Below, piece by piece: positions 1 to 61,861 of a DNA stretch of 64,000 bases. Under the pieces are notes generated by a model, which was not told the origin of the DNA, ran no database searches, and saw only the letters and a list, made by a program, of their open reading frames with translations. The translations under genes were made by a program, and so were the position numbers. Every line of letters begins with the position of its first letter. Positions within the stretch are counted from its first letter, which is position 1. The stretch comes from Tetradesmus obliquus (lineage: Eukaryota > Chlorophyta > Chlorophyceae > Sphaeropleales > Scenedesmaceae). The stretch is taken from positions 5,986,501 through 6,050,500 of the forward strand of contig CP126192.1 in assembly GCA_030272155.1 (NCBI GenBank). Reading direction: 5' to 3'.

Positions 1-267
1 CACCATGGAGAGGCCCAAGTTGGGTTTTAACACAGGATTGAACCCTGAACTGCAAAGCCCTCTTTGCCAGCTGCACCCATGGCGGTGCCTTGTGCGGGAG
101 ATAAGGAGAACAACCATGCTTTGCCTCCAATCAACATGCTGCTCATGCAGCAGAATCAGCCAGTCGTTTGCCACAGTCATATTCACTTTTGTAGGTCTTA
201 GGCTTCAGGTTCAGAAGTAACAAGTGACTGTACCGCTCCACCTGCCGCCCTTGATCTTTTGCCTCAG
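1..267. other. Probable intron at window edge
   Basis: No coding exon could be supported here. The stretch ends in a good 3' splice site (TGCCTCAG at 260-267) that opens the first visible exon of the beta-propeller gene, so it is most likely the intron upstream of it. Upstream exons lie outside the window. Confidence 0.5.
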
Positions 268-2800
268 GCTGCCCCTGGCGCTACAACCTGTCTGTTCTGG
301 CCAGCAACACAAATGAGATCCTTGACACCCTCATTGAAAATAACGGTGCTGTGTGTGGCACTGGCACGCTGAGCATCATCCCTGAGGACAGCATTCCGAA
401 CAGGGCAGCTGGGTTTGTGGTACCACCCCCAGCACTGGACAGAGCGGGCCAGGTAAGCAGCAAGTTACAAGTTGCACGTCCTGTTACTTTACGGATCAGA
501 AGCAGGCGAGCCCGCTTTACCCTAAGATCGTCCGGGCGTACTATAAGTTGGTTGATGGGGACAACAATATGCCTGGTGTGGGCATTACTGGGCAGCAGCA
601 CAAACCAGCACACCCGCTGCTGTAGGGCGTGCATGGCTGTACTGCATGTGTAGCTTCTGCCGGCCTGCACAACGTGCTTTCTGTGGTAAAGAGAGAAGGG
701 TCGAGAGTGGTTAGTCGATCAGCGTTGCGCATTGCTGGGGCAGAACAAGTGGGAAGAGGTGTGGTGACTTCCCACCCTTGCTAGATTCAAGTACTCTGAT
801 GCCCCCTGATGCAGCGCACATAGCTTCCAGATCACTCCATGCTGCACCGGCCTGAAGCCTGTGCTTGTTTGTGCTTGCTCTTGTAGACTTTCTACATGAA
901 GTTTGCGCGCAACATCTTCAGAACAAAGGTGCGAAGTCCTGCTGCCGCCAGCCCAGCTTGTGTCCTAAGACAATACATGCGGATATGTAGAGGGCGTGGA
1001 GCCCAGGGGCGCCGCCCTACAAACACCCTCTCCAGCCTCAACTTACCTAGAAGCTGCACAGCGGCCTAAATAGCTACTCACTCATCTACTCAATCAATCT
1101 CTCACTACTGTCCTGCAAGGCGCCCCAAAGGGCCTATTATGCTGTCAAGTAGGCTAGGGAGCAGCTGTGTTGTGCTGCAACCAGCTGAGTTTCTCCGCAG
1201 GGTGTTATATGTTGGCAGCAGGAGCGGCTGCTGAGCGCTGTCACAGCAAAGTTATGTCACTGGCGCTCCTGCAAACTCACCTGAGTTGTGGTGGTTGCTG
1301 TATTACCGGCGGCAGCGTACGCCCGCTGCTGCGCAAATGCACGTCACAACGTATTTGTACTTCTGCTGCTTGCTGCTGCTGCTGCTGCTGCTGAACCGCG
1401 GCATCTGCATCTGCCTGCGGCTGCGCACTAATGCATGCCACAACTTCCACACACTGATTGGGTGTGCCTGCTGCTGCAGAACTGCGGCAACGAGTGGAGC
1501 ATTTGGGCTGGTGTGTTGCGGGGCACCGGCCTGCCTGCACCCGTAGTGCAAGACACAGGCGATGATGACCCCTGCTTGGATGCCGGCTGTGAGTGCGCAT
1601 TCGGCAAACACATGCTTGGGGTTTACAGCTCCTATGACGTGTGCTTAGGGTTCAGGGTTTTTGGTTTTGAGGATTAGCGTGCCTATCACAAACCCTGATT
1701 GATGCCGGCTGTGAGTGCATGTGCACTGCTGCCTTTGCTATACAGATGCTGAACGTTTGTTAGATTCATGACAAAATAATGGCGGCTTGGCGTGTGTCAC
1801 TTTTGGAGGGTTAAGGCTCTTTTGACGACCCCTGCTTGGATGCCGGCTGTAAGTGAATGTGCACTGCTGCATGTGGCTAACAGATGCTTGGGGTTTACAG
1901 CTCGCGTGGCATGTGCAAGAGGTGTAGGTTTAGGAGCGTTTGAGGACGTGACAAACCATGGTGTACTTGATGATGTTGCTGCTGCTGCTGCTTTGGCTTG
2001 TGGTGTGCAGGTGACAACACAGGCTCTGCACTGTGGGGCGGCTGGGGTGACTCAACAGGTGGGACAGCCAGCCAGCTGTTACAAGCAGCCAGTCCTGTTA
2101 CCATTGCAAAGCGTCTGCTTTGGGCAAGCCTGCTGCAGCCTGTGCCCCCTGCTGCGCGTGAAGTGTACATGAAGTAGAAAGAGACGAGCACGAGCCTGGT
2201 GCGGGCTTGTGAGTACTATCGTCGTTATTCATGCCTATCCTTTTACCAGCCAGATGTCCCTGGCTTTGTCAGCCCAGGTACTGCCATGCACTGGCCTGCA
2301 ACTTGTCAACAACCACAGATTTGCTGTCAAAGGAATGGAATGTTGAACCCCCTTGAGGCACACTTGCATGCTGTAGAATTGTCATGCACAATCCACTGCT
2401 GCGCGGGCTCTGCTCAACTGTTGCATGCTGCTGCTGCTTCTGCTGCTGCTGCTGCTGCTGTGCAGGCAGCATCACGCTGGGCCTGCACCCCCGCAACATC
2501 CTCAGGGCCGCCTCGCTGCTCTTTGTGAGCCACACGAAAGATGACCCGGCCACTCCCGCCATTGCCATCACTGCGAATGATGGAGCCAGCTGGACCACGC
2601 AGAGCTTCAATGTGAGGCGGTGCAGCAGCAACAGCAGCAGCAGCGCAGCTAGCTACAGCAACAGAGTGTACAGCGATTACGACAGCATCTTGAACAGGCA
2701 TGGACAACAAACAATGCCTTGACAGCATCAGCTGCAACGACCAGACCGGCAGATCCCACTTACCATTGTGGTCTGCGCACGCCACTGCTGCTGCTGCTAC

Positions 2801-2839
<39 letters not shown>

Positions 2840-3276
2840 AGGTCCCAAACTGGTTCCCCCGTTCCACTACCTCCCCTACCTTCTCATCAGATGGCAGGCG
2901 CCTCTTTGTAGCATACACAGCCCCAGGGACAGGCGCACCGGCTCGCATCCTGGCCAACAACAACCCTTTTGCAGCCGGCGCAGCTGGCGCAGTGTGGCGG
3001 CCGCTGCCTGCTGCTGGCCTGCCGCGAGATGTGCCTGTGCTGCGCATTCTTGCGCACCCGACCATTGCCAGGACGCTGTTTGTGGCTAACTGGCTGGGTG
3101 TGTATGTTACATTTGATGGTGGGCTGACCTTTTCAAGGCTGGGTGATGATACAGATGAGCCACTGCCGCTGGTGCAGGTTTCAGATCTGGCGATCATTCC
3201 GCGCGCAGCAGGGGGCTTTGTGTTGCGTGCTGGCACCCGCGGCAGGTCCGTGTTTGAGTATGACAGGGTGCTGTGA
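268..3276 (+). CDS. BNR-repeat / sortilin-like beta-propeller protein, 5' end missing
   Basis: Visible exons are 268-452, 887-928, 1480-1588, 2011-2058, 2466-2611 and 2842-3276; their phases join without a break and the last ends at TGA. The protein segment has repeated Asp-box/BNR-like turns: ITANDGASW in the 2466 exon, and SSDGRRLFVAY and YVTFDGGLTFSRL in the last one. It finishes with VSDL...LRAGTRGRSVFEY, a typical closing blade of BNR/VPS10-like propellers of the glycosyl-hydrolase-like type. Substrate and cellular location cannot be told, because the N-terminus with any signal peptide is outside the window. The Cys and Asn content of the middle exons would fit an extracellular protein. 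The 1480 exon end and the stop region are each repeated downstream (see repeats). Family assignment is by motif only; the exact function is not recognised. Confidence 0.75.
1565..1910. repeat. Three copies of an exon 3' end with its donor site
   Basis: The last bases of the 1480-1588 exon plus its donor (CTTGGATGCCGGCTgtgagt) recur at about 1692-1735 and 1826-1860. Copies one and three also share a following block, ATGCTTGGGGTTTACAGCTC, at 1612 and 1885. Only the first copy fits the reading phase into the next exon at 2011. Confidence 0.8.
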
Positions 3277-3500
3277 GGCCTTGGAGATGTTTGAATGTTT
3301 GAGTTTGGCAACGTCCTGCCAGGTCTTTTTGAATCTGCCAAGACCCTGTGGGGCCTGCGTTTGAGTAAGGCAGGGTCCTGTGAGGCCTTGAGAATGTTTG
3401 ACTGTACACGAACGTCTAATATTGGCAAGGTGCTGTGAGGCCTGTGTGAATTTGGCACGGTTCCGGTGGGCCTGTGTTTGAGTAAGACAGGGTGCTGTGC
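3254..3500. repeat. Repeats of the last exon's stop-codon region in the 3' flank
   Basis: The end of the beta-propeller exon (TTTGAGTATGACAGGGTGCTG then TGA) is echoed downstream as TTGAGTAAGGCAGGGTCCTG near 3361, GGCAAGGTGCTGTGAGGCC near 3423 and TTGAGTAAGACAGGGTGCTG near 3478. Each is followed by a related GTGAGGCC tail or a variant of it. The copies are imperfect and lie after the stop codon, probably in the 3' UTR. Confidence 0.75.
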
Positions 3501-9609: not shown

Positions 9610-9888
9610 GCTGCTTTTTGACAATCAGCAGCTGCCACTGTGCGCTCACAGCGCTCATGCAGCTGCCAGCACTGCACAAAGCAGCAGGACACCAAGCTGC
9701 ACTGTGTTGCAGACCATCCGAGGCAGTCTGTGCTATCAACCTATTAGAAAAGGGTAGCAAACGGTATGACAGCCCACAGCCAAGTTCTTTCGTGTTCTGG
9801 GAGCTGGGTGGAGAACCCTGCAGAGATGGAGGGAAGAGACCTTGGCGTGGTGATGTGGCACGACTGGCTGGTGCTCAGTCTTGCAGGG
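9610..9888. other. Promoter side of the NEK-IFT57 gene
   Basis: Sequence upstream of the kinase ATG at 9609, between two divergently transcribed genes (NEK-IFT57 on minus, pheophytinase on plus). No coding exon is supported. No clear minus-strand TATA box was seen. Confidence 0.4.
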
Positions 9889-9896
9889 TATAAAAG
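9889..9896 (+). promoter_or_regulatory. TATA-box-like TATAAAAG
   Basis: A good TATA match on the plus strand, upstream of pheophytinase. It lies about 390 bp before the proposed ATG, so it would be a second, distal promoter or a decoy relative to the one at 10050. Confidence 0.35.
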
Positions 9897-10278: not shown

Positions 10279-12265
10279 ATGCAGCTTCTCAATGTGCTTG
10301 CATTGAGAAAACATGCTGTTATGTCTCATATGTGCAGCTTGTATGGCGGATTCATGATGTTACTCACCTGACTTTGCTGCTGCTGCAGCAGGTGCTCACA
10401 TGACAAGCCAGCTGTGCTTGTTGGCCAGCCAGCAACAGCAAGGAGGCAAAGAATAGTTGCTCGTTCGAACACAGCGTCTGAGCCTACCAGCACACAGCAG
10501 CCTGTACAACCCAGCAGCAGTGAAAGGATCAACCCTGGAGTAACCACGTTTGATGATGACCTGCAGCACCAGCTGGAGTTTTGTGAGTTATGCTTGCGCC
10601 AAGCGTTTGTTACACCACAAGCAGAATTTGCCACAGGTAGCATAGCACACAGCAGCGGCGCGTGCTGCCTCATGCAATGCAGTCCTTAGCTTTGCAGCCC
10701 ACGCCAAGCAGTCAGCATGCAGTACAGATCCGAGTGTTGCCGGTGCACTTGAGTATTTGTTTTTCTCCGCAATTGCACTGCACGCACGCAGCCCATCACT
10801 CACAGCTTGCTGCCTGCCTTGCAGATGACTGGAAATGGGGCAGCAAAATCAGCTACGTCCGCGCTGGCCGCACAGGGCCGCCGCTGCTGCTGGTGCATGG
10901 CTTTGGTGTGGGGGCCTACCACTTTGACAGAAATATACCAGAGCTAGCACGCAACCACAAGGTGCGCAGCAGCAGCAGCAGCAGCAGCAGGGGTGCAGTG
11001 ATGGCAGTGCCTGACAGCAATGGTGTAGCCCAGCTGTGCTACAGCAGTTATGCAGGAAGGGACGGCGCCCTGCAGAAGTCTAGTGCATGCACCCTGCAGC
11101 TGCATAAAACCGGTGCCCTGCATGTGCTTCTTGTCCGCACTAGCAGCAGCCGCCTTTATACCTGAAATCATCGCTCATTCAAAGCTTGCCCATGAGAGCA
11201 GCAGCTGTGGGCTTGGTTTACAGCTACTTCACATCCTGACAAACCAACATCGTTTCTGAGGGCCTAGTGTTGCTCAGAACATGCTATGCCATTGTCATCC
11301 TTATCGCATGATGTGCCACCCTGTCTTTAGAGGTGTATGGCGCTCGCCAACATGCCGCTGCTGCTACTGCTGCTGCTGCCTGCTGCTGTTTGGGCAGGTG
11401 TACGCCATAGACCTGTTGGGGCAGGGCCAGAGCTGGCCCACGCAGGTGCAGTGCCAGGCCAGCGGCCCGCTCTGCTACAGCGCTGACACCTGGACGGAGC
11501 AGCTCTTTCACTTCATAGAGGAGAAGATCCGGCAGCCGGTGTACATTGCCGGCAACAGCCTAGGTGAGGCTCCTCTTTCTGTGTTTTCATGCACGTCTGC
11601 GCTGGCAGCAGCAGCAGTTAGACAGCACATCAGCTCACATAGTAACGGCCAGCACAGAAGCTCCTTCATCTATGTCAAATACTCATCACCTCACATGCTG
11701 CCACAGACCGCAGACAAGCCAACCCCCCACGCTGTGTGCTGACATGACACTGTTGCTGCTGGCGGCATTGCTCTTGCCACGATGCAGGCGGCTTTCTTGC
11801 GTGCAACCTTGCAGCCAAGCACCCCGATGCAGTCAAGGGCCTGGTGCTGCTGAATGCGACACCTTTTTGGAGCAGCAGGCCGCCAGCAGGGCAGGAGGGG
11901 CTGCTGTGGAAGCTGCTGCCCTCAACAGTGCCGGTGCCCAAGGTGCGGTGCGGTCATGTGTCAGCTTAGGCTAGTTAGCTGCAAGGTTGGGTGTCTGAGG
12001 CGTCTCCTGGCAGGTTAGGTGCTGCTGGCGGTGGGTTGGGTGGAAGCTGCTGCCATCGACAGTACCAGTGCCCAAGGTGTGGTGCGGCGCTGCTTCTAGC
12101 TCAAGTTCAGCCAAGCTGTCAGGCGCAAGCATACTGCTACAACTTCTGTAGTACCAATGTTATTGGGTGGTGCGACTGGCGGATTGTCCTGTGCCTGTCG
12201 TTGCAGACAGCGAGCGTGGACGCCTGCTCTTGTTGGTTGGAGTAACGGCCTGCTGCCGTGGTTGA

Positions 12266-12312
<47 letters not shown>

Positions 12313-13979
12313 GTGCAGATGGTGAAGGCCACCATTGAGCGCTACTGGTGGGACAAGATCCGCAACCCTGAGACCATCCGGGGTCTGCTGCAGCTGGTGT
12401 ATGCACGGCCCAGCACCATTGATGACTCATTGCTGGAGCGTATTGTGCAGGTGGGCAGGTTATTACGGCAGCAACAGCAGCCGCCGCAGCAGCAGCATGT
12501 GTGCAGCTGCTTAGGCAGCGACAGCAGCACGAGCACTTGTGGTGAATGACTCCCTGCTGGAGCGCATCGTGCAGTTGGGGGTGTCGTGGCAGCAGCGGCG
12601 GCGGCGGCATGGCTGCAGCTGCTTTGGCAGCTACAGGACAGGACCCTGCCCATGAGCAACTGCATGGTGCAGCCTGCGTCTCAGTGGATCGCAGCACGTG
12701 ATGGTAGCTTGAAAACACTGGCCAACTGTTGTGTGCCCGAGGACCATTCACGCACCCTCATGAACAAGTGTCTGCGCCTGTTGCGAACACACTGCGCTGC
12801 AGGCCACGCAGCACCCTGAGGCGCTGGACGCGTTCACCAGCATTGTGCTGGCGCCAAAGACGCAGCTCAGCTTCGACGAGATGCTGGCGGCTGTCAGCTG
12901 CCCCGTGTGCCTCGCCTACGGTGCGTGCGGCTTGCTATTTACATGTGTATCTGCATTTGGTATTTACATGTGTATCTGCATTTGGTATTTACATGTGTAT
13001 CTGCATTTGGTATTTACATGTGTATCTGCATTTGGTATTTACATGTGTATCTGCATTTGGTATTTACATGTGTATCTGCATTTGGTATTTACATGTGTAT
13101 CTGCATTTGGTATTTACATGTGTATCTGCATTTGCGGCTTGCTATTTACATGTGTATCTGCAGAAATCATAGGGAGTGTTCACTGAGGTGTGGTGGCAGT
13201 ACCGCTGTGGGTGATGCTGGCGGTAGTCAGCTGCCCCTTGTGCCTGGCCTACGGTGCGTGTGGCATGGCACACAGCGCACTGATGGACAGCAACATCTAG
13301 GTGTTAGTGCAGTACCTGGCTCGTTCTTGTGGCTGCTATGCCTGCATGCCAACCAGCAGTACCAGCATCCGCCTGATGCAGAGCCACATGCCTGCCCATT
13401 CCACCACAGCCAACCATCGCAACAACCGCTGCTGCCCCCGCAGGCCGTGGCGACCCTTGGGTGGTGCTTCTGCACTTGCTGCTGCGCCACCTCACCTGCT
13501 CGTGCGCCACTTGCTGCCGCTGCTGCATCGCTGCACTTGCCCGCTGACTGAGCACTTGCTGCTGCGCTGCTGCTGCCCTGCAGGCCGCGATGACCCCTGG
13601 GTGGTGCCGCTGTGGGGCCAGCGCCTGAAGCGCACACTGCCCCAGGCGCAGTACCTGGAGCTGGCACCTGCAGGGCACTGCCCACACCATGAGGCACCCA
13701 CAGGTAGGCCAGTAGAGCTGCAGAGGCAGAATGAATTGCGTTAGCAGCAGCAGCAGCATAGCACCTGGAGCTGGCACCTGCAGAGCGCTGCCTCGGATCG
13801 CGAGGCGCCCACAGGCAGGGCGGAGGGGCTGCAGAGGCAGTCTGAGTGGGGTTAGTAGCAGCAGCTGCCCCAGGCGCAGTACCTGGAGCTGGCTCCTGCG
13901 GGGCACTGCCCACACCACGAGGCACCAACAGGTGGGCGGGCGGGGGCTGCAGAGGCAGTGTGGCTAAGTTTGGTTAGGT

Positions 13980-14025
<46 letters not shown>

Positions 14026-15372
14026 TAGTTTTCAAATGGCGCCCGTGGGGCACTGCCCGCACCACGAGGCGCTCACAGGTAGGGCAGTAGGGCTGCAGAT
14101 GCAATGTGGGTTCGGTGTGGTTGGATAGTTGCAGCTGCCCCAGGCGCAGTACCTGGAGCTGGCGCCTGCGGGGCACTGCCCACACCACGAGGCACCCACA
14201 GGTAGGCCAGTAGAGCTGCAGAGGCAGAATGAATTGAGTTAGCAGCAGCGGCATAGCACCTGGAGCTGGCACCTGCAGAGCGCTGCCTTGGATCACGAGG
14301 CGGCCACAGGCAGGGCGGAGGGGCTGCAGAGGCAGTCTGAGTGGGGTTAGTACCAGCAGCGCAGCAGCAGCATAGTACTTGGAGCTGGCGCCTGCAGGGC
14401 ACTGCCCACACCACGAGGCACCCACAGGTAGGCTGTACGGCTGTAGTAGGCACACTGTTGTAGGCAGCTGCTGCTGCAGCAGTAGCCATTCAGCATTGTA
14501 AGTCACTGAACAACGGCGTCAATGCTTTCGTGCTGTGGGTTGGTGAGACACTGCGTGCTTGTTATGCTGTCATCGAGTTATCTCAGCTGACAAGTGCTGC
14601 TGCTGCTGCTGCTGCTGCGTGGCGTCTGCTGCTGCAGCCATCAACAGCATCATTGGCAGCTGGGTGTCAGCAGTGGAGGCAGGCCGCCACCAGGAGCTGG
14701 AGCTGACACAGGTGCGGCGACAAGCTGCTGTTGCTGCTGCACCCTGCTGGAAGCGATGTGCCAGGCTGCTGCCAGCTGGCGTTTCTCAGGACATGCCACT
14801 GCTTGCTTTACACGCCATGCTATGTAAAAGGTATTCTGCCGAACTCCCATGTGTCAAGCAAGATTGTGAGCGCTTGGCTACTGCTTGAGGCCAACACCAT
14901 GCTGTTGTTTGTTCACTTCTTCCATTGCAGCTGCCGCAGGTTGGTGCCAGCACCAGCATCCGTTTCCGTGCCTGCTGCTGCCGGAGGCCATGCTGCTGTT
15001 TAATCCACTTTGTTTCATTTGTGTCCCACAGGTTGGCGCTGCCACAAGCTTTGAGGAGGCTGCCGGCCGGCTATTTATTTCTGGGTGCTGCTCGACGCCA
15101 TAGCATGCTGTGTGTGTGCTGCGTGTACCGCTGCGAAAAAAGCAGTTGTGCAGTTGAACTGCGTGTGTATTTCTATATGTGTTCCGCAGGTTGGCGCCGC
15201 CACAAGCTATGAAGAGGCTGACGGTCAGGTGGTGACTGTGTCCTGCCTTGAGGGCGCCCCCCGCAACGTGTTTGAGAAGTGGGACAACGCCAAGTGGCAG
15301 CTCAACAAGGCCTGGCAGCAGGCGCTGCAGCGGGCAGCTGGCACACGCAGCAGCGGAGCAACGAGTGCATAA
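10279..15372 (+). CDS. PPH: Pheophytinase (pheophytin pheophorbide hydrolase), alpha/beta hydrolase
   Basis: Exons: 10279-10340, 10392-10636, 10825-10961, 11398-11563, 11788-11942, 12319-12450, 12803-12920, 13584-13703, 14638-14711, 15190-15372; phases close to 463 aa. The family removes the phytol tail from pheophytin a in the plastid during chlorophyll breakdown. Hallmarks of plant PPH are all present: HGFGVGAYHFDRN, DLLGQGQSWPT, YIAGNSLGGFLACN, LLNATPFW, TQHPEALDAFTSI, LAYGRDDPWVVPLWGQ and ELAPAGHCPHHEAP. The catalytic triad reads Ser202 (GNSLGG), Asp342 (RDDPW) and His370 (AGHCPH). The first exon (MQLLNVLALRK...) is my best phase-consistent start and looks like part of a transit peptide, but it is the least certain piece. 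The C-terminal about 60 residues differ from the plant protein. Introns are unusually rich in copies of the neighbouring exons. Confidence 0.88.
11895..12100. repeat. Exon 3' end duplicated into the intron (pheophytinase)
   Basis: The block ending the 11788-11942 exon, GTGGAAGCTGCTGCCCTC...GTGCCCAAG with donor gtgcggtgcgg, recurs at about 12039-12090 as GTGGAAGCTGCTGCCATC...GTGCCCAAG gtgtggtgcgg. The second copy keeps a GT after the same AAG, so it could act as a competing donor. Confidence 0.8.
12936..13163. repeat. 25-bp minisatellite in a pheophytinase intron
   Basis: Eight near-perfect head-to-tail copies of a 25-bp unit (TATTTACATGTGTATCTGCA plus TTTGG) begin at 12936, 12961, 12986, 13011, 13036, 13061, 13086 and 13111. 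A ninth, shortened copy begins at 13143 and ends in CTGCAG. It lies between the exon ending at 12920 and a decayed copy of that same exon end at about 13205-13262, inside the intron 12921-13583. Because 25 is not a multiple of three and no unit holds a stop, it is open in all three plus frames. Confidence 0.95.
13205..13475. repeat. Decayed copies of two pheophytinase exons within the intron
   Basis: About 13205-13262 repeats the end of the 12803-12920 exon (GATGCTGGCGG...GTCAGCTGCCCC...GCCTACGGTGCGTG). About 13436-13475 repeats the start of the next exon (GCAGGCCGTGGCGACCCTTGGGTGGTGC against CAGGCCGCGATGACCCCTGGGTGGTGC at 13581). Neither copy fits the reading frame as well as the functional exon. 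Confidence 0.75.
13640..14432. repeat. Seven-copy array of a pheophytinase exon tail
   Basis: The second half of the 13584-13703 exon, encoding QYLELAPAGHCPHHEAPT plus its donor, is repeated downstream at about 13757, 13868, 14028, 14140, 14247 and 14366. Spacing is roughly 100-160 bp. The copies at 13868, 14140 and 14366 keep the encoded GHCPHHEAPT; those at 13757 and 14247 are variants with ALPRIARRPT-like changes. Spacer blocks containing CAGTAGAGCTGCAGAGGCAG also repeat, so the unit includes intron sequence. Confidence 0.9.
14927..15080. repeat. Two partial copies of the start of the last pheophytinase exon
   Basis: The last exon begins after CCGCAG with GTTGGCGCCGCCACAAGC at 15190. Related sequence follows an AG at about 14939 (GTTGGTGCCAGCACCAGC) and at about 15031 (GTTGGCGCTGCCACAAGC, then TTTGAGGAGGCTGCCGGC). 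The upstream copies run into stops or lose the frame, so 15190 is the best-supported exon. Confidence 0.75.
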
Positions 15373-16919
15373 GGCGAGAGACACTACTTCTGGTTTGTTG
15401 CTGGGGTAGTAGGAGGGTCGGGGCGTGTAGGACAGAATGCACGTGGTTGGTGGGGTACCACTATTAGCAGCATGACTATTAGTAGCATGGTTGTGCTTCA
15501 TGAGATGATGTGTCCGGTGGATGCAGCAATGTCAGCTGGTCGGAGTGTGCAGTGTGCAGCGGTGTTTTGTCGAGTTCATGATGGCATGCCACGCATGCCT
15601 GTCAATGTGATCTAAGTCGTGGTGACGGTGTGATGCAGCAGCACTACAGCAGCTGCGGTGGAAGGTTTGTGTAGGGTCTTAAGGCTTGGTGTTGATGCAC
15701 GGGCTGCTCATGTGGCTCTTTGGAGAGAAAAGGAGCAAGTGTTTTCCGTGCTCTGAAGCGCTAGGGTTTTGGCGTGGTTGCAAGGAGCAAGTGCTTGCCT
15801 GCTCTGGGAGTATGGTGCATGCCAGAATGGAGCGCTTTTGAGTGCGCTCTGCCAACAGCAGTTCGTTGGTGTTGCGGCTGTTTGGATGTTTGCCATGCTG
15901 CGTTGCTTCCCAGGTGTTGCAGACCCGGTGACAGTTGCATGTTGCTGATAGTGACTGTCGTCAGTGGTACATGCAGATGTTGTGCATGCAGTGCAACAGT
16001 ATCAAGCATGATGGTGCTGAGCATGCATGTCATGCATGCTGCTTGCACGTTGTATCAATCGAATATCATACATGCTGCTTGGCGAGGAGGTGCATGTACC
16101 ACACACGTGTCTGCATTTTTATCACATCTTCTGAGTGTAGCGTTGGTGTGGTCCGCTGAGTTTTTGAGTGTTCATTGTGGAGATGATGGGCCTGTTGGCG
16201 TAGTGGAGTTCCATGACAGCACGCATGGCATGGCGAGCATCCTCCAGATTGGGCCAGGCTGGGCACCAGCAGTACAACCGTGGGCATAACAGCGAGGCAG
16301 GACCAGCAACGATGACCGGCAAGCCTCAGTCGGTTAGTTCTTGAGTTATTTGTTTTCATGTGTGAGAATGTGGCACACCGGCTCCTCATATGGATTGAGG
16401 CGCCTCAGGAGTGACAGGCCTGCTGGCGATTATTGCGTTTTCCGCCAGCGGGTGATATGTCTGCTACTTACTTTCACGTGCTTGTAATGCGTATTAAGTC
16501 ACCAATGGCATTGTGGAATGCATACGTTCTGTGATATGCGTGGCATCTTGAGGCTGTGTTTCGTGGTGTGGTGTGGTGTGGTGCACGCGCTGCAATCTCA
16601 CAAATACGTTGCTAAGTGTTACAACGTAATCATGTCGTGACACGGACACCTCTGCAGTACCTGACAGCCGTGATCCGGTGGGAGAAGGCAGCTGACCACG
16701 TCATTTGGCTTGTTCGCGACCCGATCATCGCACTAAGGCCCTAAAATTGTTTCGTTACTAAACATAGTTCAGTGGTGAGCTGATCACAGGGTTTGTAATA
16801 AGCAGCCTGTTGATCAAGCTGCTGCAGCAAATCCGGGACAAACCGGCAAATCCTCCGAAAGTGTCGCACCGCGCACGCCAGCTGACCCTGCACTGTGCTT
16901 TGCAGGCTGACACTCACCA
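15373..16919. other. Intergenic region, no gene seen
   Basis: Between the pheophytinase stop and the DEMETER ATG. Short frames here have no domain or splice support. There is a small GTGTG repeat at about 16563-16583 (gtggtgtggtgtggtgtggtg). No clear TATA box was found close to 16920. Confidence 0.45.
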
Positions 16920-17556: not shown

Positions 17557-20500
17557 ATATATGCCCCCCCCCCTGCAGGTGTGTTATGGGCCCCAGCCCC
17601 TTTGAGCGCCACGCAGGCGCAGGCAGCAGCAAGAAGTGGAAGGCCAGCTGCAGGTGATAACAGGACAAGAAATAGAGCAGGCAGCAGCGCATCTAAACGT
17701 CCTGGGCAGCCATGGTGGGGTTGCCCCTTCTAGACATGTGAGTACGCATTACGTGTTCAGGTATAGCAAAGTAGTTCTTTTTGTGCATCTTTTCATTGCA
17801 GGGTGGCTGAGCCAGGCAGCCAGCAGTTTGGGCGCACTGTGGTTGCCTGGCTGGTTGAGCAAGGATATGAACAGGCGTCAGAAGATAAAGCAGCAGCAGC
17901 AGAAGGAGGGCCAACTGCAGTGCTTGCTGCTGCGGCGGCAGCGCTAGGAGTGGATGTAGAATCTGGTGTGACTGCTGGCGGCGGCAGCAACAAAGCAGAC
18001 AGCAGGCAGCAGGCTCGGGTGCAGCAGCGGCAGCAGCAGCTGCGGCAGCTGCGGCTGCTACTGGCTGGCATGCCGCTGCTGCAGCTGGCCAGCAGCAGCA
18101 ACGCTGCAGGCACTGCTGCTGCTGCTGCTCCTGCTGCTGCTATCGAGGGCACTTCTCCTGACAGTGCAGCACCAGCTGCAGCCGCGGCAAGCGACCTAGC
18201 GGCAGCAGACTTGCCAGTATCACTGCCATCCGGCCGCTTTAATGCATGCTGGCAGCTTCCCAGCAGCACATACCCCAACCTGCCTGCTATAGAAGCCGCC
18301 CTCAAAGGCAGCAGCGGCAACAGCAGCAGCCTAGGGACCACTCCCAAAGCAGCACAGCACAAAGCAGCTGGTGCAGGCGCAGCAGGCAGTAGAGTGCATG
18401 GCAGCGCAGCGGCAGGAGGGGCAGTGTGGCCGCAGCAGGATGGCTTGCCGGCAATGCGCGCCAAGCGTGCGAGGATACTGAAGGATGGGTCGCTGACGCT
18501 GATTCCGTATGGCCACGATGAGAGCATGCTGTGGCTGCAGCGCGTGCACTCCTTCATTGGAGCTGTTAGGTGCGGCTGTCGCATGCCAATTGCTGTTGGC
18601 TGCTGAAGTGTGGTGGTTTCAGTGGCTGGGATCGGGTGCTTGTTGTGCATCACATGTTGCTGTGGCTGCAGCGCCTGCACTCCTTCATCGGCGCTGTCAG
18701 GTGGGGGTGTGGCATGTCGACTGCTGTTTGCTGCCCAAGTGTGTGTGGCGGTTTCAGTCGTTGGGACTGGGTGCCTGTAATTTTGTTTTGATGTGTCTGC
18801 AGGCACTGCCCTTGTGCTCAACACCGCCTCCAGATCCTCTGCTGCTGCTGCTCGTGCGCTTGCTCTCCAGGTCTGTACTGGGCGGCCGGCCTTGTAGCGT
18901 GCACTGGGGCGGCAGTGTGCTGGACAGCGTGGTGGGAGCATTCCTCACACAAGCTGCTACTGCTGCTGCTGCTGCTGCTGCTGCGGCTGCTTACTCTTGC
19001 TCTCCAGGTCTGTGCTGGGCGGCCGTCCCTGCAGCGTGCACTGGGGTGGCAGCGTGCTAGACAGCGTGGTGGGAGCATTCCTCACACAAGCCGTCAGTGA
19101 CGTGCAGTCTAGCACTGCCTTCATGAACCTGGCAGCAACGTGGCCTGCACGGCAGAGGCAACCTGCATCAGCTTCAGCAGCAGCAGGAGCAGCAGCAGGA
19201 GCAGCAGCAGGAGCAGCAGCAGCAGCAGTGATGCCAGGCATCAGCAGGGCAGCAGGCTGTGGCGATGATGTGGCAGCAGGCAGAGCTGATGGTGGGGAAG
19301 GGAGAGTGATTGGTGATGATGGTCAGGAAAAAGGTGCCGCATATGCAGCAGGTGGTGGTGGTGGCAGTGCTCCTGCCTGGTACCAGCTGGGAGCAGTAGG
19401 TGAGGCTTCAGCAGTGGCAGGCTGTAACAAATCTATTTGAGGTGTGTCGAGGCCTCCTTTGATTACTGAAGAAGAGCTGCAGGCGTGCAGTAGGCGAGGC
19501 TCCAGCAGTGCCAGGCGCCCTGTTGGCTGCTGGGGGAGAGAGGTGCCAGCTGCTGCCGAGCTTGCGTCTGCGTGCAACCAATGGCATACATTGCAGCTGT
19601 GCTTGCCAGCAGGGAATGACTAATAATATGATGATGCGCTACATCTTATAGGGCTTGAGCCTACAAGCTGCCAGAGCCTATGGTGTGCTGCGTGACGCTG
19701 TCTGTGGTTGGTGCCTGCGCTCACATATAGATCATGCTGTGTGTGTGTGCCACTTTCAGCTTGTGCCTGCCTGTGGACTTGCAAGGACATGGTTGACTAA
19801 GTGGCTGTGCCTGCACCCACCTGTACATCAGACTGTCTACTGTTAAAGTACCTCAGTTTGTGTCTGCCTGTGGCTTTGCAGGTGTGGGTGAGGACATGAT
19901 CGACTACGTGGCTGTCATGAATGCACCGCAGCAGCAGCTGGAGGAGGCGCTGCACGGCAGGTGAGGGGGTGGGTTGGCTGGCACAGCAGGCAGGCAGCTT
20001 GTCTTGCCTGCAGCAACCCACTCGGTTGCTGTCTGGTACATTCAACAGGCCTTGCTCACTGTTCGTCATGAAAAATAATGTTCCATCACCGTCATTTTGG
20101 TTGTGCTTTCTGCTGACTGCCTAAACGTTCTGCCAGTGGCCTGCAAAGATTCCTAACACGCCGCAATCAAGGGTCTTGATTGTGCTTTGTGTTGCCATGC
20201 TTGGAAATTTGTATACCCATTGCTGCCGCCAGGTGCCTGCAGGGACTGCTGGTGACCAGGCCCTGGGTGCCTGCACTATGAGCAGCCCTTGCACACTGTC
20301 CGCTGATAAATGTTCCACTTCAACCGCATCTTATTGATGGTGATTTGTGCCAATAGAAGATGTGTGCCGCCGCGCTTGATTGTTCTGCTGCTTATTGCTG
20401 CCGCCAGGGGCCTGCAGGGGCTGCTGGCTCGCCGCATCCAGGCCTTCCTGAGGCAGCTGGCTGCTGACCCACGCTGCGTCATACAGCAGCACGGCCGCAG

Positions 20501-29723: not shown

Positions 29724-29756
<33 letters not shown>

Positions 29757-29855
29757 TGGGCAGGATGAAGATCATGCTCAGCTGCAACAGCAGAAGCAGC
29801 CAGAGGCGTTTGGTGGGGAGGCTTGTGCTGCAGTACTACCTGCAGATTGTGCGGA

Positions 29856-29892
<37 letters not shown>

Positions 29893-30090: not shown

Positions 30091-30285
30091 AGTTTGACCA
30101 GGCGTGGGTATCTGCAGCTGCGCATAGCTCACATCAACCCCTGACTAAAGGGGCTTCATTGAAGCTGCCTGCTTACCTGGCGCCAGCAGCAGCAGGGGGC
30201 GTTGACTGATATTTGACTGGTGAGGGGAGCTGCCTGTGCACCTGGCGACTGCAGCAGCAGGGGGCGTTGACTGAGGTTTGACTGG
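30030..30285. repeat. Stop-codon region of the DEMETER gene repeated three times
   Basis: The last coding block, GGGGCTTCATTGAAGCTGCC ... GGCGCCAGCAGCAGCAGGGG with GCGTTGACTAA (to 30090), is followed by two further copies at about 30146-30210 and 30222-30275. Each ends in GCGTTGACTGA followed by TTTGACTGG or a variant. The copies lie in the 3' UTR or flank. Confidence 0.9.
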
Positions 30286-44656: not shown

Positions 44657-47541
44657 ATGCTGAACACAGTGCAGAGGCAAGCGGGCCAGGTGCTGGGCCT
44701 GGCAGCCCGCGCCTTCGCCACAGCAGCAGTCGAGGTCGCTGGCAGCCCTTTCCTGCGTTACAGCAACCCCTTCCCTGCAGCAATTGATCACACACCCCTG
44801 CTGTCCTCTATCCCTGAGACCCAGGTGAGGCCAGGGGCTGGTAGCTGCGTACAGATTCAAAGGTTGAGGTGATAGATATACTCGACTGGGAGACGAAGGC
44901 GCTCTGGTGCCGTGGGGCAGGGCCTGTAGGCAGAGATCTGCAGGGTTAGGCTTGGGGAGTGCGTAGTAGATCGGGCCTCGTGCGAGCAGCAGCTAGTGTA
45001 GGATGCAGAAGATGCTTTTGCTACAGGTTGGCTTCTGCTGCCTCATGTATGCCAGGTGACCACACTCGCCAATGGCCTGCGTGTTGCCACTGAGGCCAAC
45101 CCATATGCGGAGACTGCAACAGTGGGCATTTGGATCAACTCTGGCAGCAGGTTTGAAAACGATGCCAACAACGGCACGGCTCACTTCCTGGAGCACATCC
45201 TGTTCAAGGGCACAAAGGTGGGCAGCAGCACTAGCAGCAGCAGCAGCACCAGCAGCACCCTGTTCTAACCAGCAGTGCTCATTGCCTGCAACAGCATGCT
45301 TTCGTTCATAAACATCATGTGACGCGCTGCTCAACTGCAGAACCAGCTCATGCACACTGCAATGCGGCAGCACATATGTGTCAATCCCGCAATCGCTGTT
45401 GTCTGCTGTCGCTTGCTGTTTCCTGCACGCGCAGACGCGCACGGTGAAGGACCTGGAGGTGGAGATTGAGAACATGGGCGGCAGCCTCAACGCATACACC
45501 GGGCGCGAGCAGACCTGCTACTACGCAAAGGTGCGCAGCACTGCTGAGCAGCACTCGAGTCATGTCTCTACTGGCGCAGGCTGCGGCGTGTTGTTTCTGT
45601 AGTGCTGCGCAGGAGCTCTGGTGGGGAGCACCGCAGCTGGGCAGCAGGCCAGGGCTTTGTTGAGCTGCAAGGGCAGCTGCATGCAAGACCGCAGGGCAGC
45701 AGCTGCACTTGCCGCAGTTTGCAGCAGGCTGGCGGTCTGTAGCAGCAGGCGTTGCTGGTGCATCAGCAGCAATGCAGCTACAGCAGCAGTTTGGTCGGCG
45801 ACGCTGGAGCACTGGCGGCTGTTTGGCTGGCTAATGGCTGGCTGGCTTACAACTTATTGGTGTGCGCATGCAGCTGGTCTCCTGCAGGAGCAACTGACTT
45901 GGCAGCAGCAGGTTCGGCAGCACTGCTTGCTGGCATGGGGTAGCAAGTGCCGGATGGCTGCCGTGGCTACCTCTGCTGCTAAGCAGACAAGTTCCTCGCT
46001 ATGCGAGGGAGGCTGCTCTCAGCTGCAGCTTGCAGCGGTGTTGGTCTGTGTACGCGTCTGCAACAGCAGTGCAAGCAACAGCGTAGTTGCCATGCCACCG
46101 CTTCATTATCTTCATGCCACGGTTCGCACACCTTCCTGTAGCGCGCCCTCGACGCAAGTTCAGCTATGCCAGCGGTCCATCTAACTTTGTAAGGCAGGAG
46201 AGGGTGTCATTCAGTGTTTCCATATCTTGCTGCAGGTGATGAAGAAGGACGTGGGCAAGGCGCTGGCCATCCCCCCCCCCCCGACCTGTGAACCCTTGCA
46301 ACACACAGCTTGATGTTTTGCTGCTGCTGCTGCTGCTGCTGCGTGCACTCGCAGGTGATGAAGAAGGATGTGGGCAAGGCGCTGGCCATCCTGGGCGACA
46401 TCCTGCTCAACAGCAAACTGGACGAGGCAGCCATCGTGCGCGAGCGCGACGTCATCCTGCGCGAGATGGAGGAGGTGAGGCTGGCTGGCTGGCTGCTGAT
46501 GTGGCAGCTTTGCTGCTGCTGAACTGATCAAGTGCACGAGGCAGCTGGGCGGAGTGCAGCGGCTTGCTGCTGTGCTGTGTGGGCGCGGCACCTGGCAACG
46601 GTATTGTGCTGCAGCATTGACTGCTGAGGTCAACACCGTAGACGGTAATGACATGGCTTGTGGGCAGCAGATGGGTGCCAGTGTTATGTCCCTTATTCAG
46701 CGTTGCAAGAGCAGGATGTAAGGATAGATGCAGGTCGCCGCTGGCACCATTCATGCGGTCCATGCTGCTTTATACTCACAAATTGGTTGCATGTCGTCAC
46801 TGTTGCTGCCGCAGGTGAACAAGCAGACCAGCGAGCTGGTGTTTGACCACCTGCACGCCACCGCCTTCCAGCACTCGCCGTTGGGCCGCACCATCCTGGG
46901 CCCCGAGGAGAACATCCGCAGCATCAGCAGGCAGGACCTGGTGGACTACATGGCAGCACACTACAGGTGAGCAGTTGGTTGGATATGTGGTGCTGCCAAG
47001 TAGCTTAGTAGCAGCAGCAGCAGCAGTAGCATCAGCAGGCAGGACCTGGTGGACTACATGGCAGAACACTACAGGTGAGCAGCTGGTTGTGTTATTTGTG
47101 CGTGAGTAGCATAGCAGCCAGCAGCAGCATCGACAGGCAGGACCGCGTGAAGTACATGGCCGCACACTGAAGGTGGGGCTGGGGCTGTTCTGCAAGCAAC
47201 AGCAGCATAAATATAGTGCAGCTTGGCTGTACAGCATGCATGCCAGTCTGGGCAGCATACCAGTTGGGCGAGTTTGCCCTGCCTGGCTTACTTGCTTCTT
47301 CGTATATTGTGCGCTGATTTGCCTTGACATATGCATGCACTCAATAGTGTGCGCGTCTGCTTTGTCTGTCTGCTTGTTTGCTGCAGGGGCCCCCGCATGG
47401 TGCTGGCTGCTGCTGGCGCAGTGGACCACAACGACCTGGTCAAGGCAGCAGAGTCAACGTTTGGCAGCGTGCCAGATGAGACGCCAGAGACCAGCGTGGC
47501 AGCACTCGTGGCCAAGGTGCGGCTTGGAGCCAGCTGTTTGA

Positions 47542-47581
<40 letters not shown>

Positions 47582-49443
47582 AGTAAAGACAGCTCAGCAC
47601 GCCGCTGCCGCTGGGCTGCTGGCGAAGTGTGTGGATTACTGGCTTGGCTGACCAACAGCGACCACATGGACAAGGAATCCCGCAGCGCCTGGCAGGGCCC
47701 CAGCAGTAGCAAATGAATTGCTGTATCCGGTTTGTGCCGCTTCCACACACTGGACCACTCTGCCAGCAGTGCGTTGACAGCTCTTAGTCAACTCTGCAAT
47801 CAACACATGGTTGCTGACTCTTGCTGCTGCTTGCCGCTGCTTGCAGGAGCCCTCGCTGTACACTGGCTCCTCAGTGCTGGACCGCCACCCCGACCAGCAG
47901 CAGTGCTGCATGGCGGTGGCCTTCAAGGGCGCGGCCTGGACAGACCCCGACAGCGTGCCGCTGATGGTGATGCAGACCATGCTGGGAGGCTGGGACAGGA
48001 ACAACACCAGCGGCAAGCACGCAGGTGCGTGCTGCACGTGATTGATTAGTTTGGTCTGGGCACTGTGTCGAGCAGCACGCAGCAGGTGTAGCGTGCCATC
48101 GTCACCCCTGTAGCGCTTGCTGTGCTGCTGTTACTTTTTTTTAATTTTTCTGATTTTGTTCACTGAATCCTGCTGCTGCCCCACAGGCAGCGTGCTGACG
48201 CAGAAGATTGCCACTGACGAGCTGGCAGACGCCTTCATGGCCTTCAACACCAACTACCACGACACCGGGCTCTTTGGCGTGTACGCCGTGACGGACCGCG
48301 AGCGCAGCCAGGACCTGTCCTGGGTGCTCATGAACGAGATCACCAAGATGTGCTACGAGGTGAAGGAGGCTGACGTGGCGCGCGCACGCAACCAGCTCAA
48401 GGCCAGCCTGCTGTTCCTGCAGGACTCCAGCCAACGTGAGTGCGGGTTTTTTTGGTTTGGTGGTTCTGCGTGGTTAAACGTTGCTTGAACCCCAAGTGGT
48501 GCATATTTGACTTTAGAGTGGTCGTCTGGGTGCCTCGAATCTGATGTGCACTCCCTGGGTGCTCATCAATGAGAGGATAATCTGGTGAATTGATGAGGCG
48601 AAGGAGGCTGACGTGGCACGTGCACGCAACCAGCTCAAGGCCAGCTTGCTGTTCCTGCAGGACTCCAGCCAACGTGAGTGCCATAGTGTTTAGACAGTGG
48701 TGGTTAGTTTTGGGGTTCTGGACAATTAAAGGTTGCTTGAATAAGAAGGAACTGGTGCAGGGTTTGACTTCAGAGTGGTTGTTCAGGTGGCTGATGTTAG
48801 ATGTGCACGATTGCGTGTTGTGCTGCGGGTGTGATGACTGTACACTCTGCCTCATACTTCGCTGAAAGCCCTAGGGCCATGAGGATAACAGTGTTAGCTC
48901 TGACCTGACGTTTTGCCCACGGTGCTGCAGTGCGTGTAGTTGTGCCAGTGTGCGTGCTGTCACAACGCTTTGTCGTGCTGCGGGTGTGATGACTGTACAC
49001 TCTGCCTCATACTTCGCTGAAAGCTCTTCGGGGCCATGAGGATAACAGTGTTAGCTCTGACCTGACATTGCCTAGTGTTTAAGCAACGCACTCATCGATG
49101 CCTTTGTGCCTTCTGTGCACAATGGTCGTCGTGCTGTTGCTGTGTTGATTTCACATCCTTCCAACTGTTTGTGATGCTGCTTGCTTGCTGCTACCCTGCT
49201 GCTGCTGTTTGCCGTCCTGCAGACGTCGCCGAGTCCATTGGCCGCGAGCTGCTGGTGTATGGCCGCCGCATCCCCAAGGCAGAGATGTTTGCGCGCATCG
49301 ATGCCGTGGACGCAGACGCGGTGCGTGCAGTGGCTGACCGCTTCATCTATGACCAGGACGTGGCCATTGCTGCTGTGGGCGACACGCAGTTCCTGCAAGA
49401 CTACAACTGGTTCAGGAGGAGGACGTACTGGATCAGGTACTAA
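44657..49443 (+). CDS. MPPB/QCR1: Mitochondrial processing peptidase beta / complex III core protein 1
   Basis: Exons: 44657-44824, 45056-45217, 45435-45530, 46355-46474, 46815-46966, 47387-47516, 47847-48024, 48187-48435, 49223-49443; phases close to 491 aa. This M16 metallopeptidase removes mitochondrial presequences; in plants and algae it is also the core 1 subunit of the cytochrome bc1 complex. The N-terminus ([20 protein letters not shown]) is a mitochondrial presequence. The zinc site is intact: His99, Glu102 and His103 (HFLEH) with Glu179 76 residues after the second His. Other landmarks are [59 protein letters not shown] and the C-terminal [13 protein letters not shown]. Several exon edges are copied into the introns; the chosen exons are the only set that keeps phase. 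Confidence 0.93.
46232..46392. repeat. Decoy copy of a peptidase exon start with a poly-C break
   Basis: GCAGGTGATGAAGAAGGACGTGGGCAAGG... CTGGCCATC at 46233-46270 is an earlier copy of the true exon start at 46352-46390. It runs straight into a run of C (about 46271-46281), which destroys the coding sequence. Both have a usable AG. Confidence 0.85.
46925..47172. repeat. Three copies of a peptidase exon end and donor
   Basis: CAGGACCTGGTGGACTACAT...CACTACAG with donor gtgagc (to 46966) is copied at about 47037-47080 (GAACACTACAGgtgagc) and, more decayed, at 47135-47172 (CAGGACCGCGTGAAGTACAT...CACTGAAGgtgggg). The first two keep identical donors. Confidence 0.88.
48350..48690. repeat. Copy of the [15 protein letters not shown] exon end
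   Basis: GAAGGAGGCTGACGTGGC...CTCCAGCCAACgtgagtgc at 48362-48440 is repeated at 48600-48680, with the same donor. The intron sequence that follows each (TTAAA(C/G)GTTGCTTGAA...) is also repeated, so the unit of about 240 bp spans exon and intron. The second copy is preceded by a changed, stop-containing sequence. Confidence 0.88.
48817..49072. repeat. Near-identical 155-bp intronic duplication
   Basis: GTGCTGCGGGTGTGATGACT...GACCTGAC at about 48818-48912 recurs at about 48974-49067 with few differences over nearly 100 bp, the least decayed duplicate of this length in the window. It lies in the last intron of the peptidase gene and matches no exon. Confidence 0.9.

Positions 49444-57017: not shown

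Positions 57018-57060
<43 letters not shown>

Positions 57061-58859: not shown

Positions 58860-58860
<1 letters not shown>
57688..58860. other. Promoter side of IPCS and intergenic sequence
   Basis: No gene seen. It includes an imperfect duplication at about 58472-58520 and 58573-58625 (GGGT..AAGCAT.AT...TTACAT.AGGTGTAAA). Confidence 0.45.

Positions 58861-58950
<90 letters not shown>
58861..58950. repeat. Perfect (CTG)30 microsatellite
   Basis: Ninety bases of uninterrupted CTG, the longest pure triplet run in the window, in a gene-free stretch. The flanks (GCATATGTAG before, TACTGACAAC after) are unique. I found no exon or splice site supporting its use as coding sequence. Confidence 0.97.
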
Positions 58951-58955
<5 letters not shown>

Positions 58956-60447: not shown

Positions 60448-61117
60448 TCAGAACGCCCCAAGCTGGTCTGCCACCGTCTGCACCGCCTTGTGCCTCACAA
60501 ACTTGGTGAATGGCCGGCTCACCACACCCCCAAGCGCCATGGTACGCCCAATCACTGCATCCCTCAGCCGCGCAGCCGGGTTACGCCTGTTGCCATCATT
60601 TTTTGGCGGCACCCAGCCCCTCACCAAGCCATCTCCGCTGCTGCTGCCATCATCTTTGCCTGCTGCTTCCTCTGCAATATCCACCACTGCTGCTGCTGCG
60701 CTCCCAAGCCCATGCTGCAGCCCCTTCTCTGCCTTCGCCCCCACCTTTGCTGCCCGCATCACCCCGCCAGGCAGCGCAGCAGCAGCAGACGTCACATCCT
60801 GCATCAACTTCCCTGCTGCCTCTCCCGCCTCCCCAACCGTCGCCATCATAGCAGCAACCGGCCCCACCACATCCCTCCGCTTCCCTTGTTTATCTTTCCG
60901 CAGCGCCTGCACACCTGCAGCAGCACTCCACGCAAGCAAGCCGTAGCCCAGCCAGCGCAGCAGCCGCTTGTGCTGAGGCTCTTTTGGCGGCAGCATGCTG
61001 CGCAGCGGCACGAAGCTCACACGGTGCAGCTGCGCTGTGTAGTCTAGCAGGCCTTGGTGCAGCGAGACGCCGCCCAGGTTGGAGCAGGCGCCCAGCGCCT
61101 GGCTGACCTGCGCACAA

Positions 61118-61156
<39 letters not shown>

Positions 61157-61675
61157 CCATGTGGAGAAGAAACAGGACGCAAAGCAGGCCCTTGATGCAC
61201 AAACAGTGCGCTGCAGCATGCCAATGCGGCATGGATGGCTGGAAGACTTCCAGCAACCATTCCTTGCAACAACATTCAGACCAGTTCCCCCAGCAGTGCT
61301 GGCCCCTGCACAACGTACAACACTGCAGTCTCAAGGATGCTGCACGACAGACCTGCATTGTTCCTGGCTATGACTGTTACAGATGAGTGTTACAACGACG
61401 CCCCGGCCACCCCACCTGCATGATGTGCCTTCAGCGTGGCCGCCGCCGCATCTCCAGCCAGCTAACCGATGCAGTCAACAAATAGGCTTATGTTTACACA
61501 GCGCAGCCACAACATCACTAGACCTGAGCATAAATTCCTCGCACCTGCATGATGTGCCTCCAGCGGGGCCGCCGCCGCATCTCCAGCCGCCGCAGCGCGT
61601 CACGGCTCACACCGCACGCCATCACGGCAGCACCCAGCTCCGCGGCGTCCTCAAAGGCCTGGGAGATCTCTTGGC
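60448..61675 (-). CDS. Unrecognised protein with one hydrophobic segment, 5' end not found
   Basis: Two exons are supported (minus): 61675-61545 and 61107-60448, joined in phase 0. Upstream coding should exist, because the first visible exon opens in phase 1. The visible part is about 263 aa: an Arg-rich helix (ISQAFEDAAELGAAVMACGV, RRLEMRRRPRWRHIM), then SQALGACSNLGG, VSFVPLRSMLPPKEPQHKR, a hydrophobic stretch (LLRWLGYGLLAWSAAAGVQAL), a basic patch (RKDKQGKRRD), and an Ala-rich helical region of the TVGEAGEAAGKLMQDVT type. I do not recognise the family. A retrotransposon lies just upstream (from about 61862), so the missing 5' exons may be beyond it, or the gene may have been cut by it. Confidence 0.6.
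61415..61592. repeat. Copy of an exon end in the intron of the unrecognised gene
   Basis: CCTGCATGATGTGCCTCCAG plus CGGGGCCGCCGCCGCATCTC (61544-61583) is copied at 61417-61456 with few changes (CTTCAGCGTGGCC). On the minus strand this is the exon's donor end carried into its own intron, as in the other genes here. Confidence 0.88.
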
Positions 61676-61861
61676 CTGCAGGGAAGGTGTGTGAATGCGA
61701 TGTCAGGAGCTTCTTGACACATATATAGTCTGTGATTTGCAGCGCTCTGCTGTTGCTGTGCACTGCTCTGTGGTTGCAGAACCCTGAGTAACACATGCCC
61801 TGCTCGGTGCTTGCCTATCGCCAGCACACTCGCAGAGAAACACTGTTGGGTGTTAGATTAA
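61676..61861. other. Short gap between the unrecognised gene and the retroelement
   Basis: Sequence upstream of the first visible minus-strand exon. No confident start exon. No LTR end, target-site duplication or primer-binding site could be recognised at the element junction. Confidence 0.35.

Follow-up and report, generated by a model that had tools for sequence, protein, structure and literature searches.

Why do the introns of a green alga hold copies of the edges of their own exons? The question is raised by a 64,000-nucleotide stretch of the Tetradesmus obliquus genome (contig CP126192.1, C2:5986501-6050500; the whole stretch is hereafter called the window), in which an original prediction, made from the letters alone, had counted about 18 instances in 62 kb of a piece of exon copied a short distance away. 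We compared the window with 200 kb of control sequence from the same genome (104.7 Mb in 17 contigs), consisting of 20 stretches of 10 kb: every one of the 17 contigs was sampled once at 1.0 Mb, and the remaining three stretches lie at 4.0 Mb. Loci sampled outside the window and mentioned below (L004, L008, L014, L017, L018, L019 and L045) are cited with positions within the locus. Introns and exons were delimited with a home-made, self-trained gene-structure model, which is rough and wrongly called some copies exons, including false exons in two copies within a mitochondrial processing peptidase gene.

A copy of the flanking exon edge, detected at a score threshold of 50, was present in 37 of the 270 introns, about one in seven, and lay on the donor side in 27 cases and on the acceptor side in 17. 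The rate was the same in the window (9/69 introns) as elsewhere (28/201). When exons of other genes were set against the introns, as in the shuffled control proposed together with the original prediction, no match reached this score in 2,700 comparisons, nor did the introns' own exons after reverse complementation (0/540). Exon interiors matched introns in 3 of 206 cases, and exon edges set against introns that lie one or two positions away in the same gene, hence not adjacent, matched in 8 of 772. Moreover, 37 of the 44 exon-side matches reached or passed the predicted border, seven falling short of it (two by 2 and 4 nt), which upholds the claim that the splice site is nearly always part of the copy. 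These results confirm that exon-edge copies are a genome-wide property, as far as sampled; if the sample is representative, thousands of them are implied per genome.

The copies belong to a larger population of local direct repeats. Comparison of the window with itself at E<=1e-6 returned 32 repeat pairs, 31 of them direct with an offset of at most 724 bp and one inverted, its arms about 15 kb apart. With simple repeats masked first (3.7% of bases) and pairs below 44 bits dropped, 164 direct pairs lay within 500 bp (window 34, control 130), as against three inverted pairs within 1 kb, all in the control; inverted pairs spaced more widely came to 13 for the window and 6 for the control, and reversal of window and control sequence without complementing gave just three matches in total. 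The excess of near, same-orientation pairs agrees with the predicted local DNA process. Direct pairs no more than 1 kb apart number 182; offsets of 100–159 bp occur in 70 of them and offsets of 220–279 bp in a minor group of 29. In the window, 31 of 36 such pairs have offsets of 65–333 bp, close to the 70–330 bp originally given, and the other five belong to the pheophytinase array. Identities form a continuum from below 70 to 100%. Single pairs make up 53 of the 90 clusters, 37 of these 53 having an offset of 96–175 bp, while some families form head-to-tail multi-copy arrays by a minisatellite criterion (e.g., window 13625–14500). Because identities spread so widely and arrays reach seven copies, an assembly artefact appears an unlikely source of the copies.

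The position of the single pairs relative to genes is far from random. Pairs joining a border to non-coding sequence (16 observed versus 8.8 at random) and border to border (14 versus 4.3) are overrepresented, those joining exon to non-coding sequence are about as expected (7 versus 6.1), and pairs confined to non-coding sequence (9 versus 19.7), confined to exons (7 versus 10.9) or joining a border to an exon (0 versus 3.2) are scarce. In five of the seven exon–exon pairs the offset is divisible by three, four of these five lying in L008, as though out-of-frame events had been weeded out. Base composition was rejected as the whole cause, non-border repeats averaging 53% G+C. In the window, the alignments contain about 17 to 18 families (two decayed ones seen by eye only), close to the number predicted, as follows (offsets in bp):

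1563–1916, plus strand: gene labelled beta-propeller, exon end with 5' splice site; intron copies at 1665–1750 and 1802–1916.
3252–3499, plus strand: end of a last exon with stop codon (model end 3276); 3'-flank copies 73% identical, offset 107.
11906–12087, plus strand: gene labelled pheophytinase, 37 nt of exon and 11 nt of intron, offset 134 (11906/12040).
12880–13267, plus strand: exon end with GTGCGT, copy at offset 333 (12880/13213).
13427–13607, plus strand: 3' splice site and start of the exon from 13584, intronic copy upstream, offset 138 (13427/13565).
13625–14500, plus strand: pheophytinase array, in which exon end, 5' splice site and neighbouring intron occur seven times in tandem, 107–147 bp apart.
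15013–15224, plus strand: 3' splice site and start of the exon from 15190, intronic copy upstream, offset 157 (15013/15170).
18527–19090, plus strand: DEMETER-like gene, donor-side pair at offset 131 (18527/18658) and acceptor-side pair at offset 137 (18859/18996).
20219–20427, plus strand: acceptor-side copy, offset 175 (20219/20394).
25291–25482, plus strand: 43 nt of exon and GTGCG, offset 145 (25291/25436), with a 1-nt deletion in the copy.
30019–30285, plus strand: exon end with the stop codon of a long open reading frame (TAA, 30088–30090), three copies (30019/30138/30228) at offsets 119 and 65.
46232–46391, plus strand: gcag and 37 nt from the start of a mitochondrial processing peptidase beta (MPP-beta) exon (46355), intronic copy upstream, 97.6% identical, offset 119 (46232/46351).
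46918–47175, plus strand: MPP-beta exon end with GTGAGC, two intron copies at 97% and 83% (46924/47032; 46918/47124).
48357–48808, plus strand: 79 nt of MPP-beta exon plus intron, duplicated at offset 238 (48357/48595).
61413–61588, minus strand: 44 nt of exon and GTG, offset 129, 95.7% identical (61413/61542).
Near 12541 and near 19762: decayed copies, seen by eye only.

Borders at 1563/1665/1823 and 3252/3359 were judged partly by eye: at 1563 a GTGAGT near 1589 was taken as the donor, the gene model ending the exon at 1510. At the 30019 site the model offers an alternative, with a donor placed after 30079. Two further pairs are less typical, 34155/34417 having no stop codon inside the copy and 36713/36780 being simple-repeat-like. 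The names beta-propeller, pheophytinase and MYND are putative labels taken from the original prediction, while the DEMETER identity is backed by an RRM_DME Pfam match within 28105–30078; a Pfam scan of single exons gave matches in four of ten, one of them under its curated cut-off. The peptidase gene is that of the MPP-beta subunit, the best solved homologue being chain 9f5x_1M (MPP-Beta). A VMKKDV-type peptide and a second peptide of ten residues each occur once in this chain and twice in the gene model, and therefore the second MPP-beta copies are not part of the usual protein. The copies might supply material for new exons, as first predicted, but the extra MPP-beta copies are absent from the protein of this homologue.

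Several other repeats were seen in the same sequences. An eight-fold run of near-perfect copies of a 25-bp minisatellite unit (12932–13134) lies within the intron between the 12880 and 13213 copies. An intron-only pair at 48816–49069 (94% identical) has a 78% relative at C4:2900780-2901052 and may belong to a dispersed element instead of reflecting an exon-edge event. Thirty perfect GCT triplets occupy 58860–58950, CAG/CTG runs being frequent in the window and sometimes placed directly before a 3' splice site. Finally, L019 1418–1480 (63 bp) and L017 9304–9373 (70 bp) each match at least 35 places in the genome at 94–100% and count as dispersed repeats.

The internal anatomy of the copies is asymmetric. 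From the sets used for anatomy, flank homology, codon positions and the sequence beside copies, long blocks, short spacers and low identities were left out, and in the anatomy set of young pairs (identity of 92% or more and a predicted border within the pair) the filter also excluded contiguous arrays. Of 22 such pairs, 16 extend 13–111 nt into the exon and just 2–19 nt into the intron, the intron part often being merely cag or gcag at acceptors and gtg to gtgagtaa at donors, a pattern that resembles targeted copying of exon edges. The other six reach further into the intron; two further long families raise this number to eight (about 16/24 short), and a second border predicted in three of the 16 would class these as long. 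Beside the copies, the sequence matches at chance level only. With each flank taken by itself, however, the two sides differ: when pairs lacking a clear exon side are left out, 13 of 41 pairs show decayed homology beyond the copy on their intron side (nine with p<0.01), compared with 2 of 42 on the exon side (Fisher p=0.001), and the difference holds outside arrays (7/26 versus 0/27, Fisher p=0.004).

How much of this intron-side homology exceeds background was gauged in two ways. Non-exonic stretches of the same geometry without listed pairs were positive in 10 of 187 cases (4 at p<0.01), and donor ends of introns without edge copies in 10 of 90 (8 at p<0.01); some of these self-similar donor ends may themselves be older, decayed duplications. 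Over all pairs the excess above copy-free introns is significant (p=0.005). In ten of the 13 positive pairs, which were aligned (three were left out), mismatches amount to 7.9% of sites in the copy, with 0.8 gaps per 100 bp, but to 19.2% in the flank, where gaps number 7 per 100 bp. The same gradient is visible within a single alignment block at 48357, where the exon part and 8 nt of intron show 4 differences in 87 positions and one gap, and the intron part 23 in 106 and eight gaps. The 20219 pair also has decayed intron-side homology (p=0.005), displaced 62–80 bp from the copy's diagonal. Arrays that keep both halves of the unit exist as well, namely the pheophytinase array in the window and those in L017, L018 and L019. 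Taken as evidence for border-spanning tandem duplication, the intron-side homology appears of moderate weight. From these alignments we conclude that the duplication junction probably lies at the exon-side end of a copy, and that in part of the cases, possibly most, duplication probably took in the intron side as well, which was then lost. The description of the events as copied exon edges may thus hold only in part: the exon-side end looks like a true junction, and the intron side was probably duplicated with it at least sometimes and has since decayed, which makes a single duplication across the border the better reading of the event.

The explanation that we favour, with about even confidence, is that local tandem duplications across exon borders pass a filter at the border, lose their intron half to decay and have their exon half refreshed. 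Duplications of roughly 100–175 bp, sometimes about double, would arise throughout the genome, the candidate initiating lesions being a staggered break with fill-in, slippage or template switching. What the repeats directly show of such events is the shared orientation, the short offsets and an end inside the exon past which the copies are unrelated. Duplications lying wholly within an exon would be purged by selection unless in frame, and those across a splice site or stop codon would persist, the exon-proximal site still being used and the outer copy discarded. Exon interiors may thus be copied into introns so rarely because an in-exon duplication adds about 125 bp to the message, whereas a border duplication leaves it unchanged, and the apparent targeting of splice sites would be partly a selection filter. 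Subsequently, the intron-derived half of the unit would decay in both copies, and the exon-derived half would last much longer, in part because selection holds the exon copy. The intronic copy may also be refreshed again and again by repeat-mediated exchange with the fixed exon, through gene conversion or unequal exchange, and further rounds of duplication would yield the arrays of three to seven copies. On a bolder and more tentative version, which we regard as possible, the exon under purifying selection acts as a master template that rewrites its own intronic copies, so that splice decoys stay young-looking while introns turn over.

A number of observations weigh against the favoured explanation. 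The border filter leaves the deficit of intron-only pairs and the short intron parts unexplained. We simulated neutral decay of an approximately 125-bp unit at three indel rates, holding its exon copy under constraint and leaving its outer copy free, and pairs of at least 92% identity with an intron part of 20 nt or less numbered 0/30, 5/31 and 1/15 versus 16/22 observed; even with the two further long families included (about 16/24), the data depart from the most favourable simulated rate (p=0.0002). Simple one-sided neutral decay was therefore rejected, short intron parts being far commoner in the data than in the simulation: provided that the intron was duplicated in the first place, the exon-derived half survives longer, relative to its intron-derived counterpart, than simple drift can account for, and we infer the refreshing step to bridge the gap between simulated and observed lengths. 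Part of the intron-side signal is background self-similarity of introns (the 10/90 above), which weakens the argument from co-duplication, and outside arrays the excess over these introns is marginal (7/26 versus 10/90, p=0.05; at the p<0.01 level 5/26 versus 8/90, p=0.13). Intron-side homology was undetectable in 28 of 41 pairs, some of them among the youngest (46232/46351, p=0.82; L014 591, p=0.40; 61413, p=0.31), and in the ten aligned positive cases it lies 6–85 bp off the copy's diagonal, nine of them in one direction. Where one copy is intronic and identity is 90% or more, codon position 3 also carries 28 of the 42 differences (p=0.02). Lastly, the gene structures are home-made predictions.

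For the pairs that lack flank homology the main rival is capture without the intron: break repair within an intron would copy a nearby exon edge from the sister and insert it 40–100 bp away, by synthesis-dependent strand annealing (SDSA) or template switching. Unmatched spacers are the rule among the direct pairs (141/182 positive, with a mode of 40–60 bp), contiguous-looking pairs with a spacer of -20 to 19 bp amounting to 4 of 182 only, and this is what capture would produce. The 28 pairs without intron-side homology, together with the share of the remainder that is background, point the same way; the orientation bias suits copying from an intact sister, and such events are described in vertebrates (Pace et al. 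2009, PMC2671141). The distance from donor to copy is at most 1 kb for all listed pairs, by selection, and hence within the 5 kb at which a donor would be looked for. Capture should, however, commonly yield interior copies missing the splice site, yet exon interiors were found in introns in only 3 of 206 cases and 37 of 44 edge matches reach the border. It leaves the above-background intron-side homology unexplained and gives no reason for the homology of young pairs to end 2–19 nt into the intron. We therefore hold it possible, if rather doubtful, as the general explanation.

The spacers bear on another one-step origin, in which fill-in of both overhangs at a staggered break creates a direct repeat, with unrelated filler DNA inserted between its two arms. 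This would produce repeat, spacer and repeat at once, its survival would require a splice site in the repeat, as observed, and staggered breaks are on record as a source of small tandem duplications (Schimmel et al. 2021, PMC8355091). Most spacers, though, lack a source in the 264 kb compared: of 77, 27 had any match there at E<=1e-3 and 50 had none, and a genome search with one repeat–spacer–repeat (46200–46480) matched only itself. Nor does fill-in with filler predict the intron-side homology or the hugging of the splice site, and we consider it improbable. The spacer matches listed, up to three per spacer, were local array copies or short or repeat-like matches; with no recurring family among them and 46200–46480 being single-copy, a transposon or introner in the spacer was rejected.

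The distribution of differences over codon positions adds a second line of evidence. In 42 pairs with one intronic copy, differences at positions 1, 2 and 3 number 61, 46 and 121, a share near one-half at position 3, as expected of a neutral copy beside a constrained exon; where both copies were modelled as exon (26 pairs), the figures are 28, 42 and 85. All four exon differences of 11906/12040 fall at position 3. The 28/42 excess in the younger pairs is mild and poorly predicted by the favoured reading and by capture alike, since at most one-half is expected of a freely drifting copy. It does lean in the direction expected if the assembly had mixed haplotypes or a hybrid, the exon edges of two diverged homologues having been fused in one consensus, and such a fusion would also fit homology that ends near the splice consensus in young pairs. 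Arrays of three to seven copies, identities continuous from below 70 to 100%, 107 of 228 differences at positions 1 and 2 and a paralog with an array of its own all speak against it, as does the chance-level match beside the copies, which leaves nothing for an assembler to join on, making a mixed consensus very unlikely.

Better preservation of exon halves than simulated neutral decay allows might alternatively mean that selection maintains the intronic copies for a function, such as gene regulation through alternative or decoy splice sites. The pooled codon-position pattern is near neutral, however; GT is lost in some copies (L014 7495; L017 7274), one-base indels occur in others (25291; L017 6882), the offset is divisible by three in just 3 of 16 young short-intron pairs, and the nearest solved MPP-beta has the duplicated peptides once only. 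A general function of the copies is accordingly hard to credit. In-frame alternative use was rejected on the same 3/16 offsets and two one-base indels.

Long-query genome searches for a recent paralog with and without a copy returned mostly dispersed short repeats, leaving a diverged pheophytinase-like paralog on C6 as the only usable comparison. It runs from C6:1158301 onward (L045 1164–3179 and L004 1–2600), corresponds to window 10876–15373 and is mostly 72–78% identical over the matched exon stretches. At an exon that has one outer copy in the window, the paralog has a three-copy array of its own (L004 276–1002, 86–89%), and copies of its last exon follow the stop codon, located by eye (L004 1994–2554, 70–89%); self-comparison of the paralog revealed no copies at the exons matching window 11906 or 15190. 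Since the paralog has duplications of its own and none were found at these two exons, the duplications seem to have a separate origin in each lineage, in keeping with the predicted genome-wide recurrence. The paralog is apparently without two introns (window 12451–12802 and 13704–14637), and in the window each of them contains exon-edge copies. Duplication may thus be linked to introns being gained or lost, in either direction. Gain of an intron through a copy that directly adjoins the following exon was rejected, the copies in the cases read lying mid-intron and the outer ones stopping short of that exon.

Short paired duplications, or close direct repeats, are known from other eukaryotic genomes as an excess of near, same-orientation pairs with a spacer; the exon-border association and the uneven preservation are what is added here. 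In potato RdRp, a tandem duplication crossing an intron–exon boundary gave rise to a new intron (Ma et al. 2016, PMC4974935). Like the duplications in T. obliquus, it took in the border and splice site, so that the gene holds two copies; as presented there, however, it is one case that made a new intron, whereas here the copies mostly lie inside existing introns with the exon half better preserved. The repair-mediated duplications of vertebrates are short, close, in some cases over splice sites and continuous over time, but partial exon/intron donors account for 4 of 824 in Table 2 of that report, where one duplicated exon is inverted, unlike the same-orientation, border-dominated pairs described here (PMC2671141). 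Fill-in at staggered breaks, as reported in PMC8355091, offers a candidate lesion for local same-orientation duplications. Direct repeats close to splice sites have likewise been described by Rogers and Bendich (2025, PMC11782384), in whose comparison the repeats are 4–30 bp long and the two borders of one intron are compared, whereas here they are copies of one exon edge and mostly exceed 30 bp. In the literature searched, largely outside subscription journals, we found no report of exon-edge copies this dense or of exon halves surviving preferentially. The type of mutation is therefore already known, and the density, the border filter at such a scale and the uneven preservation appear to be new.

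If about every seventh intron contains something close to a second version of its exon's edge, splicing in this alga constantly has to discriminate true sites from nearby decoys, mostly 100–175 bp off, a natural test of splice-site choice where local sequence alone leaves it undecided. Gene finders and surveys of exon duplication will be misled by the copies in such genomes, as our own model was at MPP-beta. The introns would at the same time document small duplications at high density, together with what selection admits among them and possibly exchange between exons and their debris.

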